Part shown: one piece after another, positions 1,940-11,606 of the stretch
Numbering within the stretch: position 1 is the first letter of the stretch
Layout of the letters: each line of letters opens with the position of its first letter
From: a virus
Length of the DNA stretch: 23,234 nucleotides
Virus record (IMG/VR): IMGVR_UViG_3300038786_000174
Location: 1 to 23,234 of that record
Direction: 5' to 3' (one strand)
Notes under the pieces: model-generated
The model's database searches: none
What the model was told of the DNA's origin: nothing
Seen by the model: only the letters and a program-made list of their open reading frames with translations
Translations under genes and position numbers: made by a program

Positions 1940-3382
1940 TTATGATAAGTTGATTAAGTTTGTCCAAGTTCCACCTATGTTAAATGTAACATATTGTGTT
2001 TCTGCATGGTGTCCAGCTTCTACTAATGCGAATCTAGATTTTACAGCGATCTTTGGTGCCATAGTTCCTTCAGCGATAGTCTGTACTGATTCAGCCATTA
2101 AATAAGGCATGAATACTAGTCCAGGTCCGTTTCCGTCTCCTTTTCTTCCTACTGCTACTTGGTAAGAATCCCAAGATTGAGTTGGATCAGTATAGATGTT
2201 GATTCCAGCTACTGCTCCTAATGGATAGATTGCTCCAGCCGATTGAGAAATAGTATTAGACATTGGGTTTGCTACGAAACCTGCAATTGATTGTAATACT
2301 GTAGCAACTTGTGCTCCAACAACTGCAAAGTTACCAGCTCCTCTTCTACCTCTATTAGCAATTAAGTTAGCTGCTGCTAATACTTGCGTTAATATTTGTC
2401 TGTGAGTTGATGCAACAGTTTCTCCACCACCTAATGCGGTTTGTGCAGGTAATGTAATATCAAAATCTCCAGCATTTCCAAATGCTCCAGCAACGTTAGT
2501 ACCTCCTAAAGTTCTGATTGCACGTAAAATGTGTTGGTTAATAGATTGAGTTAATTCGTTAGTTAATACTGACTCAACTTGAGCTACAGCATCTACTCCG
2601 AATTGCTTTAAATCTTGAACCTGCTCTCTAGTAACTGCAGCAGCTACTTGGTAAGTCTCAGCGGCAATTGATTTAGAGAATAAAGATAATCCCATTACTT
2701 TATCACCAGTTGATTCTCCTTCTGCTCTTGAAAAAGGTGCTCCTGTTTCATCAGCTGCAGTAAATCCTTTAATGTGATCTTCTAATCCTTTTACTAATTC
2801 AATAGTTGCTCCTGCTCCAGCTGCGAACTCTTCTAAATCTAACTTTACGTTAGCTTTTTCAATAGTTCCTACTTTAAAGATTGATTTACCATCAATTCTT
2901 GAAGATCCTACGAATGTATAACCACCGTAATTTCCAGGATTTGCAACGATATCAGCTTTTGTTAAAAGTGTTTCATCACCTTTAATATAAGTTGGTGCCG
3001 CAGCATTGTTGATACTACCAGACTCATACGTAAAGTCTAAGTAAGATAATAATCCCATTGGTCCAGCCATTGGTACAACAGGTACTAAATCTAATCCTAC
3101 TGTTTGTGCAGCAACTTGCATTGCTAAAGGTAATAAAGAAGGTGACTTGTCACCAGATCCATTTACTCCACCGTTTGGTAAAGTTGCATTACCCATACCA
3201 GCTAAATTCATTGGTCCTGGATTATCTCCTAAAGACATAATTGTTGCGTCTTCATAAAGTTTGTGGTTGTGACAGTAAGTCGACATCCAAGCTAATTTGT
3301 TAGCTTCGTTGATTCCTGTAGCAGATTCGATGATCGGTGACCATGTTGCTCTGATTTCAGATTCGTTTATTAATTTTGCCAT
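1940..3382 (-). CDS. 23: Major capsid protein, gp23-like
   Basis: 480 residues; T4 gp23 has 521. It forms the hexameric shell of the head. It is recognised as a T4-type capsid protein from the N-terminal region (INESEIRATWSPIIE), the glycine- and alanine-rich body, segments such as GLSLFSKSIAAETYQVAAAV and LTQSINQHILRAIRTLGG, and its place after portal, core and protease genes, which is the T4 order 20-67/68-21-22-23. The N-terminus holds candidate prohead-protease sites (INE at residues 5-7, IIE at 17-19). A GATATATA box lies 100 bases upstream and a strong terminator follows, so it can be transcribed as a single-gene unit. The leader is long and A-rich without a Shine-Dalgarno sequence. Confidence 0.9.
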   Translation of the reverse strand: MAKLINESEIRATWSPIIESATGINEANKLAWMSTYCHNHKLYEDATIMSLGDNPGPMNLAGMGNATLPNGGVNGSGDKSPSLLPLAMQVAAQTVGLDLVPVVPMAGPMGLLSYLDFTYESGSINNAAAPTYIKGDETLLTKADIVANPGNYGGYTFVGSSRIDGKSIFKVGTIEKANVKLDLEEFAAGAGATIELVKGLEDHIKGFTAADETGAPFSRAEGESTGDKVMGLSLFSKSIAAETYQVAAAVTREQVQDLKQFGVDAVAQVESVLTNELTQSINQHILRAIRTLGGTNVAGAFGNAGDFDITLPAQTALGGGETVASTHRQILTQVLAAANLIANRGRRGAGNFAVVGAQVATVLQSIAGFVANPMSNTISQSAGAIYPLGAVAGINIYTDPTQSWDSYQVAVGRKGDGNGPGLVFMPYLMAESVQTIAEGTMAPKIAVKSRFALVEAGHHAETQYVTFNIGGTWTNLINLS

Positions 3383-3535: not shown

Positions 3536-5563
3536 TTACTTCTTAAATCTTTTAGCTATTTCCGCTGCTATTGCAGTTGTATCATATCCAATAGAAGGTT
3601 TAACTTCCTTAGATTCTTTGATTAACTCTACCTTTTCCATAACAACTGCAGTATCTCTTAAATCTCTAGTTTGCCAGAAGTTTGCTACTTGATAAGAAGT
3701 TTCTAACGTATGGTATCTAGATTGTGCTAAGATTTGATTTTTTTTAGCTTCTGATAATTTAGAATAAGTTTCTTTATATTCACTTGGCATTAATGCAGTA
3801 ACTTTAGGCTCGTCTTGTGCTGTAGATACTAATAATGAATTTTTCCATAATCCTAATATTTGTCCTTCTGTTAAGAATCCTCTTCCTTCAATTGCTGATA
3901 ATACTTTAGATTTATCTTCTGTAACTAATTCATTAAATTCTGATCTAGATGACTCAGATACAAATCTAAAGAAATGTGGATCTTTTGTTTTCTTTTCTTC
4001 AGCTTTATTAATTAATAGTTGTAATTTCTCAGTAATTGAGTTCTTATAAGCATCTAAAGAATCAGTTTCTTCGTTTGTAGCGTCAGTTGGTTCTCCTAAT
4101 TTCTTAAGTTCGTCTTCGATATCTTCAGCTCTATCTTCTTTAATTTCTGTTCCTTCAGCATCTCCTTCACCTTCTAGGTCTAAATCACCTTCAACGTTTT
4201 TAACTTTTCCGTCAATAACATTTCCATCTGCATCAACTATTGGTGTTGTAACATCTTCAGTTCCTGTTTCTAAATCTTCTGCGGGAGTTCCAGCACCGTC
4301 AGCGCCTTCTTTAATTTCTGCTCCTTCAGCATCTCCTTCACCTTCTAGGTCTAAATCACCTTCAACGTTTTTAACTTTTCCGTCAATAACATTTCCATCT
4401 GCATCAACTATATCAGCTGTAACATCTTCAGTTCCTGTTTCTAAATCTTCTGCTGGAATTCCTGCACCGTCTTCTAAAACAAGGTTTGTGTTAACAGTTT
4501 CTGCAACATATTCAGTATATTCAGTAACTTTTTCTAGGTTTTCTTTTAAGTATTCAATATACTCTAATAAATTGTCATGCGATGTTGCACCTTCGTTATA
4601 AGATTCTGCTAAATAATTAGTGTATTCTTTAATCTTGTCAATTCCTTCAGCAAGATGCTCTGAATATTGTATTGATTGATCTGTCTTTTCTGCAATACTT
4701 TCTGAGTATTGTATTGATTGATCTATCTTTTCAGCTAATTCTTCTGAGTATTGTATTGATTGATCTGTTTTTTCTGCGATATGCTCTGAATATTTGATTG
4801 ATTGATCTAATCTTTCTGCTAAATAAGTAGCATACTCCTTTAATTCCTTTCCATCTTTAGATTCTATGCTTTCTGCTAAAGATTCTTTAATAGTCTTAAT
4901 TTCTTCAGAAAGATATTTAGAATATTTATTAAAGTCTTCAACAGTGATAAATTTAGATTCTGCCATTGTTTCTGATTCTTTGTTTTCTTTTGTTAATTTA
5001 GTTTGTGTTTTTCCTTGAATTTCATATATTAATAAGTCAGAGTTGCTTTCAAATCCATAAGATTCATTAACTCTTGTTAATTCAGCGTTTTCAAATCCAG
5101 GATCTGCTACTAAATCATATGTAAATAATTGTTTAATTTTAACTTTACCATTCTCTTCAACTGCGCCGGCGGCTCTAGAAGATATTTGTAAAGGAACACC
5201 AGCATCTACCAAGGCCTTAGCTTGTCTTCCTGCTTCAGTATCTAATAATCTTATTCTACCTCTAATTAATTTGTTAGCTTCATCATATGTTATTTCTTCT
5301 ATGATATGTGATACGTTTTTTAAAGATACATCGAAATTTGATGGGTGATCTAATTCACCTAATAATTTTGATGCTTTAATCTTGTCTTGCAAAGATTCTA
5401 TTTGAGGTAAATATTCTTCAGCTGTATAGATTCTATTGTTTTTATTCTTTTTATCTAATTCTCCGAAAATACCTTCTAGAATGTAAACACCATTGTCACT
5501 CTTTAAGTCTAAACTAGAAGATGATCTCTCTAGGATTAATAAGTCTTTGTTGATATTGCTCAT
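3536..5563 (-). CDS. 21: Prohead core protease (gp21-like) fused to a scaffold-like domain (gp22-like)
   Basis: 675 residues, about three times T4 gp21 (212). Residues 25-170 match the T4 prohead protease: GVYILEGIF, GELDHP with the likely catalytic His73, and VPLQISSRAAG with the likely catalytic Ser at 128 or 129, then LVADPGF. This serine protease matures the T4 head. From about residue 200 the protein is quite different: heptad-rich 14-residue repeats (249-304), two near-identical acidic 53-residue blocks (367-419 and 424-476), and an alpha-helical C-terminus of about 175 residues. This resembles a gp22-type scaffold, and no separate gp22 gene lies between this gene and gp23. An in-frame ATG at 4964-4966 (Met200, MAESKFITVEDFNKYSK) stands at the domain border and could start a separate 476-residue scaffold. 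The protease call is firm; the scaffold role is inferred from position and composition. Confidence 0.87.
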   Translation of the reverse strand: MSNINKDLLILERSSSSLDLKSDNGVYILEGIFGELDKKNKNNRIYTAEEYLPQIESLQDKIKASKLLGELDHPSNFDVSLKNVSHIIEEITYDEANKLIRGRIRLLDTEAGRQAKALVDAGVPLQISSRAAGAVEENGKVKIKQLFTYDLVADPGFENAELTRVNESYGFESNSDLLIYEIQGKTQTKLTKENKESETMAESKFITVEDFNKYSKYLSEEIKTIKESLAESIESKDGKELKEYATYLAERLDQSIKYSEHIAEKTDQSIQYSEELAEKIDQSIQYSESIAEKTDQSIQYSEHLAEGIDKIKEYTNYLAESYNEGATSHDNLLEYIEYLKENLEKVTEYTEYVAETVNTNLVLEDGAGIPAEDLETGTEDVTADIVDADGNVIDGKVKNVEGDLDLEGEGDAEGAEIKEGADGAGTPAEDLETGTEDVTTPIVDADGNVIDGKVKNVEGDLDLEGEGDAEGTEIKEDRAEDIEDELKKLGEPTDATNEETDSLDAYKNSITEKLQLLINKAEEKKTKDPHFFRFVSESSRSEFNELVTEDKSKVLSAIEGRGFLTEGQILGLWKNSLLVSTAQDEPKVTALMPSEYKETYSKLSEAKKNQILAQSRYHTLETSYQVANFWQTRDLRDTAVVMEKVELIKESKEVKPSIGYDTTAIAAEIAKRFKK
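4136..4465 (-). repeat. 171-bp-spaced near-perfect tandem duplication in the scaffold domain
   Basis: Two copies of a block of about 159 bases lie at 4307-4465 and 4136-4294. They encode residues 367-419 and 424-476. The copies share AEDLETGTEDVT and DADGNVIDGKVKNVEGDLDL, followed by the same acidic tail, and differ at only a few bases. The encoded blocks are very acidic. Confidence 0.9.
4652..4819 (-). repeat. Four tandem 42-bp (14-residue) coiled-coil repeats
   Basis: Residues 249-304 consist of four 14-residue units of the form AEKTDQSIQYSEHL, varying at a few positions (AERLDQSIKYSEHI, AEKTDQSIQYSEEL, AEKIDQSIQYSESI, AEKTDQSIQYSEHL). Fourteen residues equal two heptads, so a regular coiled coil is expected. 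Decayed units continue to about residue 354. Confidence 0.88.
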
Positions 5564-5587: not shown

Positions 5588-5595
5588 TATATATC
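5588..5595 (-). promoter_or_regulatory. Candidate late promoter box GATATATA for the protease-scaffold gene
   Basis: The minus strand reads AGGATATATAATCCAA, 24 bases before the ATG at 5563 and in the 66-base gap after the stop at 5630. It belongs to the GATATATA series of this window. Confidence 0.55.
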
Positions 5596-5629: not shown

Positions 5630-6277
5630 TTATTTTTCTAAAGCTGTTAATTCGTCTTCAATTGAATCATCATCATTGTTAACTGTTGGTTCTCCTTCTT
5701 CCTCAGATTCTTCTGCTTCAACTTCTTCTGCGTTTACTTCTTCTAAGTATTTGTGGTAGTATTGTACTAATGTTGATATATCTACACTAGTAAATGCACC
5801 TTGGCCATACACTTCGTAGAAGTATTCAACGTACTCATCTTCAGTTTTAGAACTAACAAGAGCTCCAACTATTTCTGTAGCTTTAATTTCTTTACCATCA
5901 TCTGTAGTATAATCATCTACAATAACATCTGATTCAGGTGTTACATTAACAGCTCCTTCTTGTATAATAGACTCATTTGAATTAGGCCAAACCATTATAG
6001 TTTCTGCATCATAGAATGTTATTTCCCATCCTTTATCAGCAGTTAGCTTTCTAAAAGACTTTAATACTCCGTTATCAAACTTGGAACTAGATGAACTCTG
6101 ATCTATTTGTTTATCATTATCTGCTTTACTTAACCAAATTCCTGATTTTTCACCGTTAAAATCTTCGCTTGTTTTTACAAAGTCTCTTCCTTTACTTTTA
6201 AACCAAGACATCATTGCATCTCTATCTAAAGTCTTTGCTTCATTAACAAACTGTTCAAATAATTTTAAATACTTCAT
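5630..6277 (-). CDS. Probable prohead core protein at the gp67/gp68 position
   Basis: 215 residues. The N-terminus MKYLKLFEQFVNEAKTL is an amphipathic helix ending in FVNE, like the short cleavable leaders of T4-type head proteins. Residues 10-110 are a mixed domain with WEITFYDAETIMVWP. The last 35 residues are very acidic, with runs of Glu and Asp, ending SIEDELTALEK. The gene lies between portal and protease genes, where T4 has genes 67 and 68 for small acidic prohead core proteins. Function is inferred from position, the acidic tail and the leader; no sequence match to gp67 or gp68 can be claimed. No separate late box was seen in the 41-base gap to the portal gene. Confidence 0.7.
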   Translation of the reverse strand: MKYLKLFEQFVNEAKTLDRDAMMSWFKSKGRDFVKTSEDFNGEKSGIWLSKADNDKQIDQSSSSSKFDNGVLKSFRKLTADKGWEITFYDAETIMVWPNSNESIIQEGAVNVTPESDVIVDDYTTDDGKEIKATEIVGALVSSKTEDEYVEYFYEVYGQGAFTSVDISTLVQYYHKYLEEVNAEEVEAEESEEEGEPTVNNDDDSIEDELTALEK

Positions 6278-6318: not shown

Positions 6319-7914
6319 TTATATTTCTATATCTAACGGATCAACTTCAGGTTCTTCTGCGTCTTTAGAAGCTTTACGAGCCTTATAAGCTTCATTTGCC
6401 GCTTTATCATCTGGTGATAATTTTAAGTAACGATCTACTAAGAAGTCTTGATCAAAATAAGATGTTTCTTCCATCGTTACTGGATCGGTTTCAACTAATG
6501 AACTTTTAAGATCTGAAACGAAGTTAATTCTACGTTCCATAATTTCCATGTGTTTAAGTTCAGCAAACATATTCTCTTCAATAAATTGTAAAGATATTTG
6601 TGTCTTAAATGCTGAATCATCTGCAAACTCTGGATATTTTAAACACATTTGTATGTGTAATGGCTTAACTAATATCTCTTGAAAAACAGATCTTAATCTT
6701 TTTATAAATTTAGAGAATTTAATTTCATCTCTAATCATACCATCAGCTGCTAGGTTAAAGTCTCCACCACCGTCTTCATACATAAATCTATTAAATGGTA
6801 TCTTAGAAACTGCTTTAAGTTTATCTGTAAAATATTTAAGTGCTTCAGTATCGTTTAATTCTGGACCTTCTCCACCTAATGTTTCGATTTCAGGTTGTTC
6901 TCCATCCTTTGAAGGTAACCAGTATTCTTTATTAAATTGTAACATTGGCTTTCCATCAGTCATTAATGAACCTGATTCAAAATCAAAGTCTACAACCTCT
7001 TTATAGTTATGCATTAATTGTGCTAACGATTGTTTAGCCCTAGTCTTAGATTTACCACCGACTGGTATAATGAATTTCATTCTATAAGATGAGTTTGTAA
7101 CTGCCCAAATAACTCTGGTATGTTCCATGATTCTCATCAGGTTAAATGATCTTACGAGGCGTTCTAAGTAACTTACTCTCGATGCTGTTGTAATAGATGA
7201 ATATGCAATATAAATGATCTGGGAGTCGTATAAGATCCTCTCCTTGATTGGATCGTCTTTAAATTGGGTCCAAACTTTCTTTTTGTCATCTTTGTTATAT
7301 CCTGGAACTATTGTAATAGGATCTATCTCTTTAAAACCTATAATTTCTGTTTGATCAGGACTATATATAATCTCAAATGCTAAATAACCATCTACTAAGA
7401 ATTTTCTAAAATAGTACCATGCTGATTGGTCTTGTGTAAAACCAAAGTATTGATAAATATTTCTAAATGATTTGTTAAGATATTTAGTTACATCTTCCGA
7501 AACATCCATTCCTATTATTTCAGGATTTACGAAAAAGTTTTTGTTATCATAAACGACAGACTCATCACATAAAATATCTAAGATGTCTTCTATTTCATCG
7601 TATGTTGAAAACGCTCTAAGTTCTTCACGCTTTCCTTCATATGCTTGATCGAAGAATGGAATATTCTTACGCATGTTAGTATCTGACATTGAAAGTGCAG
7701 CGAAAGCGCCATACATATCATCAGATTCTAATCCCATCTGGTTCATTTGACCAAATCCTATTTTGTCTTCTACTGGTCCAATTGCTTGTGACTGTCTAAG
7801 TACTAAATCATCATAAAACATACCAAAAGAAGATAACTTCTTTAGTGAGTCTTTTAATGTGAATGCCTTCTTATTGTAACTTAAAGGGCCGTTTCTCTCT
7901 ACGAATCCTGCCAT
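6319..7914 (-). CDS. 20: Portal vertex protein, gp20-like
   Basis: 531 residues; T4 gp20 has 524. Twelve copies form the ring through which DNA enters the head and to which the neck attaches. T4-type features are the N-terminal YDEIEDILDILCDESVVYD, GFKEIDPITIVPGY, a long helical segment SYLERLVRSFNLMRIMEHTR, and the conserved stretch FMYEDGGGDFNLAADGMIRD followed by IKFSKFIKRLRSVFQEIL. The next genes (core, protease, capsid) follow the T4 order. A variant late box lies 26 bases before the ATG, and the leader ends in AAACAAATATG with no Shine-Dalgarno sequence. Confidence 0.93.
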   Translation of the reverse strand: MAGFVERNGPLSYNKKAFTLKDSLKKLSSFGMFYDDLVLRQSQAIGPVEDKIGFGQMNQMGLESDDMYGAFAALSMSDTNMRKNIPFFDQAYEGKREELRAFSTYDEIEDILDILCDESVVYDNKNFFVNPEIIGMDVSEDVTKYLNKSFRNIYQYFGFTQDQSAWYYFRKFLVDGYLAFEIIYSPDQTEIIGFKEIDPITIVPGYNKDDKKKVWTQFKDDPIKERILYDSQIIYIAYSSITTASRVSYLERLVRSFNLMRIMEHTRVIWAVTNSSYRMKFIIPVGGKSKTRAKQSLAQLMHNYKEVVDFDFESGSLMTDGKPMLQFNKEYWLPSKDGEQPEIETLGGEGPELNDTEALKYFTDKLKAVSKIPFNRFMYEDGGGDFNLAADGMIRDEIKFSKFIKRLRSVFQEILVKPLHIQMCLKYPEFADDSAFKTQISLQFIEENMFAELKHMEIMERRINFVSDLKSSLVETDPVTMEETSYFDQDFLVDRYLKLSPDDKAANEAYKARKASKDAEEPEVDPLDIEI

Positions 7915-11598: not shown

Positions 11599-11606
11599 TA
11601 TATATC
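11599..11606 (-). promoter_or_regulatory. Candidate late promoter box GATATATA
   Basis: The minus strand reads GTAGATATATAACAAAAAC in the 34-base gap between the gp46 stop and the ATG at 11576. Its location at the border of the replication operon and the first structural gene fits a late promoter. Confidence 0.57.

Follow-up and report, generated by a model that had tools for sequence, protein, structure and literature searches.

A T4-type prohead protease and a putative scaffold encoded in one gene with a conserved, start-like internal Met codon

In the window, i.e., the whole stretch of 23,234 nucleotides analysed here, a single minus-strand gene encodes an S77 prohead protease of the T4 gp21 type, followed by a variable linker and an acidic coiled-coil helical protein, and a Met codon (Met200) lies at the border between the two parts. 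The fusion and the conserved, start-like character of this Met are established by comparison with homologous sequences. Judged from sequence, the gene probably (about 0.8) gives rise to two proteins, a full-length protease–scaffold and a nested 476-aa scaffold started at Met200. T4 requires its scaffold at several times the amount of the protease, which poses a testable question as to how one fused gene can satisfy that demand. Standard annotation places a single protein at this locus, so that what is probably the main scaffold would be overlooked.

The fused gene and its locus

The open reading frame at 5563..3536 of the minus strand comprises 675 codons with no internal stop in the window. 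The main features of the locus are as follows:

3536..5563, minus strand: fused prohead protease–scaffold gene, 675 aa, open and fused in every complete relative
5018..5545, minus strand: S77/gp21-type protease domain, residues 7–182 (Pfam, PHROG, Foldseek)
5588..5595, minus strand: GATATATA element upstream of the fusion gene, likely late-promoter core
6319..7914, minus strand: gp20-like portal (Pfam Portal_T4, E 4e-70)
5630..6277, minus strand: 215-aa protein of no known family in the gp67/gp68 position (placed by context only)
1940..3382, minus strand: gp23-like major capsid protein (MCP), directly downstream of the fusion (Pfam Gp23, E 2e-43)

The order of portal, small gene, fusion gene and MCP is that of T4, a separate gene 22 is absent, and the C-terminal part of the fusion occupies the gp22 slot between the protease and the MCP. 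In relatives, the gap between fusion and MCP is mostly 62–264 nt and, thus, a gp22 gene would not fit there. Two head-module proteins of no known family, the 215-aa protein and another of 345 aa (787–1824), both on the minus strand, flank portal/protease and MCP. The 215-aa protein starts with MKYLKLFEQFVNEA, and its LFE motif is of the cleavage type, which would suit a gp67/68-like core protein.

The original prediction placed a protease and a part in the scaffold slot in one 675-codon frame, which is borne out by the uninterrupted frame and by protease matches in two profile collections. Pfam Peptidase_S77 (PF03420) matches residues 15–139 (E 1e-12; 48.3 bits against a cut-off of 27), and PHROG 207, head maturation protease, matches residues 7–343 (E 2e-42). 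Comparison with gp21 proteins in hhalign gives a probability of 99.8 (E 1.5e-27), and the predicted model matches T4 gp21 (5jbl) in Foldseek (E 3e-8, probability 1.0). Across 55 sequences, His73, Ser128, Ser129 and Asp150 are invariant and Asp154 is nearly so. By these profile and model matches, the N-terminal ~180 residues are a protease of the S77/T4 gp21 type, with predicted activity.

The remainder of the gene is divided as follows:

3536..4966, minus strand: nested scaffold reading frame, 476 aa, predicted start, sharing its 3' end with the full gene
4484..4942, minus strand: long helical/coiled-coil region, residues 208–360 (predicted model)
4646–4813, minus strand: 14-residue repeats in the coiled-coil region (four 42-nt repeats)
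4064..4483, minus strand: acidic low-complexity hinge, residues 361–500 (model)
4135–4471, minus strand: 171-nt tandem duplication in the acidic hinge
3539..4057, minus strand: conserved C-terminal helical domain, residues 503–675 (model)

From its position and anatomy, we infer that this C-terminal part is a scaffold and the counterpart of gp22. Residues 503–640 share a mean pairwise identity of 56%, and the domain at 503–675 is likely the shell-binding end of the scaffold. Profile comparison found no similarity of the C-terminal part to gp22 (no match to phrog_237 or phrog_10922; hhalign probability 0.1), and Foldseek found no gp22 likeness in the C-terminal model, whose pTM of 0.35 makes for a weak fold search. 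A separate gp22-like gene elsewhere would have spoken against the original prediction, and none (phrog_237) was found in 14 whole large phage records. In these 14 records, the scaffold part is essentially confined to the fusion, at one copy per record, and matches outside it are short and repeat-bearing or weak, in three huge-phage records. In two huge phages, separate small ORFs of 210 and 87 aa located elsewhere match the scaffold repeat region: in LR756501, a 735 kb phage (620132–620287), and in LR745206 (460483–460659).

Conservation of the fusion, of Met200 and of its leader

A first fetch yielded 80 IMG/VR loci, whose complete members carry a single open frame of 593–747 aa, and later scans used protease-only patterns, more distant profile patterns and patterns of the C-terminal domain only. 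The last of these returned fused genes in 78 of 80 cases, the remaining two being cut by contig ends. All complete relatives checked are fused, which rules out a frame error of a single genome, and the fusion extends to distant huge phages (462–735 kb), Tenacibaculum phage PTm1 and Chryseobacterium phage MA9V-2. At 1207 aa, the fused product of MA9V-2 (L083, 7947–11570) is roughly double the normal size, and its C-terminal part is very long. Genome matches fall in Bacteroidota MAGs in 3/4 cases, and the hosts of this large T4-like phage family with the fusion are probably Bacteroidota. A fusion gene is also carried by CAJJCY010000001.1 (606,700 bases), which is binned as a SAR324 bacterium and is probably a misbinned huge phage. 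A literature search of limited scope found no published report of a fused or nested T4-type protease–scaffold gene.

At the border of the two parts and at the protease N-terminus, the following elements are found:

4964..4966, minus strand: Met200, inferred internal start codon (conservation, start-like context, unstructured RNA)
4967..5020, minus strand: variable disordered linker, residues 182–199, whose last 24 nt (4967–4990) form the A-rich leader
5021..5029, minus strand: I-Y-E, residues 179–181, candidate release site after the protease (33/34 representatives)
5528..5536, minus strand: I-L-E, residues 10–12, candidate N-terminal self-cleavage site ([IL]xE here in 34/34 representatives)

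Met200 with an A-rich leader had been noticed at the border from the window alone, and it lies there at 4966–4964, behind aaagaatcagaaacaATG. The Met was present in 62 of 62 and then in 99 of 99 different homologues, the latter counted by motif, with three rows that were only shifted in the alignment. In larger sets, it occurs in 107 of 108 motif-bearing nonredundant sequences, 4–11 residues ahead of a conserved downstream motif, and in 100 of 101 nonredundant homologues, whose tree has two deep clades and a single loss. By comparison, ten-residue windows holding any Met amount to 11%, and the conservation of Met200 across these homologues exceeds chance. Retrieval bias was considered, since the Met was part of one pattern in the first scan, yet the protease-only and C-terminus-only scans agreed. 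A lack of conservation of the internal start among relatives would have told against the nested start as originally proposed; in this set, the Met is lost in one homologue of 101, and the leader is kept as well.

The surroundings of this residue are not conserved in the same way. The linker has a mean pairwise identity of 20%, with residues gained and lost and a length varying by 12 residues, and it is predicted to be disordered (pLDDT below 50 for residues 185–205); a structural role for the Met200 side chain is, therefore, unlikely. The position of the Met floats, lying 15–27 residues past I-[YF]-E and the same 4–11 residues before the next motif. Read from these alignments, Met200 is selected as a codon.

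The leader adds to this picture. The 24 nt upstream of Met200 are 69% A in 34 representatives, compared with 40% in the whole genes and 33–42% upstream of the other conserved Mets (592, 642 and 647). Corrected for the codon use of each gene, third-position A reaches its gene-wide maximum just before Met200, with a z of 12 (SD over offsets 2.8) among the 34 representatives of less than 80% identity, a value inflated by the relatedness of the homologues. Scored with a start-context matrix built from 212 gene starts, Met200 sites have a median of 1.55, between those of true starts (4.0) and internal ATGs (−4.5; 95th percentile 0.24), while the window's own Met200 scores 0.36, barely over that percentile. 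Position −3 is A in 31 of 34 representatives, and the RNA around Met200 falls within the least structured 3% of windows. These phages start their genes behind A-rich leaders that lack Shine-Dalgarno sequences, and ribosome profiling in F. johnsoniae showed that A at −3, −6 and −11 to −14 together with low structure favours initiation (PMC6847099). The Met200 leader thus looks like the genuine starts of these phages and matches the initiation preferences of F. johnsoniae. Huge phages of the deep clade all keep the Met, behind a leader that is less A-rich yet resembles those of their own genes. Such a strongly conserved putative internal start offers a system for studying Shine-Dalgarno-free initiation.

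A single lineage of the clade, L252 (4995–6881; also L253–L256), has lost both Met200 and its A-rich leader, identically in four contigs. Since they are missing together, Met and leader behave as one element. Nor does a Met align at the border in the fused genes of PTm1 and MA9V-2; thus, such genes can either dispense with the nested start or rely on a different one.

T4 gp21 cuts after L/I-X-E, has such a site at LIE-9, and is itself processed at the C-terminus and perhaps at the N-terminus (PMC9026906). The conserved I-[YF]-E located 15–27 residues before Met200 is, by its sequence, likely a self-cleavage site and is treated here as a candidate. The sequence GAGATAAAT recurs right after the I-[YF] codons of many lineages (L006, L008, L009, L012, L031, L110, L115, L117, L124 and L144), and no explanation was found beyond the shared residues E-I-N.

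Proposed expression and rival explanations

In the proposed mechanism, one late gene would give rise to two co-terminal head proteins. Initiation at codon 1 would yield the full-length protease–scaffold, which would be brought into the prohead core by its scaffold end, and initiation at Met200 on the same mRNA would yield the free 476-aa scaffold that makes up most of the core. Initiation of the Bacteroidota type, at an A-rich unstructured leader without Shine-Dalgarno sequence, would set the product ratio, presumably with the short form in excess. On completion of the shell, the protease would excise itself, probably by cutting behind I-L-E(12) and I-[YF]-E(181), and would then degrade the scaffold at the numerous [IL]-x-E sites that it contains.

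Alternatively, a late promoter within the protease part could drive a separate nested transcript for the short product, as in herpesvirus UL26.5 (PMC4498786). The distribution of GATATATA in 34 loci makes this motif the very likely late-promoter core of the phage clade, where it would replace the TATAAATA of T4: 99 copies in 185 upstream regions compared with 2 in coding sequence, a 610-fold enrichment, at a median of 32 nt before the ATG. In the window, it occurs on the minus strand at 11606, 10282, 9034, 8087, 5595, 3490 and 1867. It stands ahead of 34 of 34 fusion genes, yet the 67 kb of fusion-gene sequence contain no copy, which makes a nested late transcript unlikely and favours internal initiation on a common mRNA. 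Several lineages do have GATAAATA, one base off the late motif, 43–55 nt ahead of the Met, but this sequence shows no enrichment upstream of genes (0.9-fold) and is accounted for by E-I-N codons. Hence, a nested late promoter before Met200 was rejected as a candidate. Moreover, such a transcript would still require Met200 as a start, and we regard this explanation as very improbable.

Another explanation dispenses with the second start, in that only the fusion would be made and self-cleavage at I-[YF]-E(181) alone would separate the scaffold, Met200 being kept for some other reason. The presence of this motif at the border in 33 of 34 representatives agrees with it, as do the fused genes of PTm1, MA9V-2 and L252 without the Met, and L252 represents a natural test case for scaffold release by cleavage only. 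However, this explanation leaves unaccounted for an invariant Met within a disordered linker of 20% identity, the adjacent codon-level A bias, and the simultaneous absence of Met and leader from L252, and it would fix protease and scaffold at 1:1. It is, thus, unlikely. To a similar degree, we doubt that the C-terminal part serves in targeting or as an internal head domain while another core protein, e.g., the 215-aa or 345-aa neighbour, acts as the scaffold. The missing profile or fold similarity to gp22 would fit this reading, as would the two neighbours of unknown family (5630–6277 and 787–1824). Against it stand the T4-like gene order (portal, small gene, protease, C-terminal part, MCP), the long, helical, repetitive and acidic character of the C-terminal part, as is typical of scaffolds, and the lack of any other gp22-like gene in the 14 records. 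Translation of a nested scaffold from Met200 remains the preferred reading.

Comparison with known systems

In lambda C/Nu3, an in-frame nested start yields the scaffold from the protease gene, and the C protease belongs to class S49. The putative scaffold here has the same in-frame 3' placement, whereas the proteases are not homologous, the present one being of the S77 type and outside the S49 class. The two lambda proteins, C and Nu3, interact (PMC3224144). The likeness to lambda drawn in the original prediction holds as one of layout, and the parallel with herpesvirus UL26/UL26.5 is no less close. There, protease and scaffold likewise lie in one frame, with the scaffold sharing the 3' end, and the release site is located 21 residues before the UL26.5 start (PMC4498786), compared with 15–27 residues between the candidate I-[YF]-E and Met200. 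However, UL26.5 has its own promoter within UL26, whereas no internal promoter of this kind was found here, as judged by GATATATA, and the nesting would be translational.

T4 genes 21/22 have in common with the present gene the protease fold and motifs, the gene order, cleavage sites of the L/I-X-E style and the downstream MCP. They differ in being two genes with a stop between them instead of a single frame, and the scaffold part described here has no detectable similarity to gp22. T4 gene 21 also has an essential second start, Met45 (PMC9026906), which lies inside the protease and not at the protease/scaffold border. T4 uses ~576 gp22 per 100 gp21 (PMC5694885), a ratio that a 1:1 fusion alone would not match. 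PTm1 ORF-300 and MA9V-2 gene 209 also combine a protease with a long C-terminal part directly before the MCP; they lack the border Met and are annotated by protease/scaffold names only, with no nested start noted.

The layout works like lambda C/Nu3 and UL26/UL26.5 and belongs to neither, being a variant within the T4 protease family. T4 and herpesvirus proteases share elements (PMC5694885), and the arrangement connects the two-gene heads of T4 with the fused, nested protease–scaffold genes of herpesviruses. On balance, there is good reason to think that a widespread T4-related lineage, including huge phages of more than 400 kb, uses a translationally nested protease–scaffold gene, with an invariant start tuned to Bacteroidota ribosomes, as the phage counterpart of UL26/UL26.5 in a protease superfamily shared by phages and herpesviruses.
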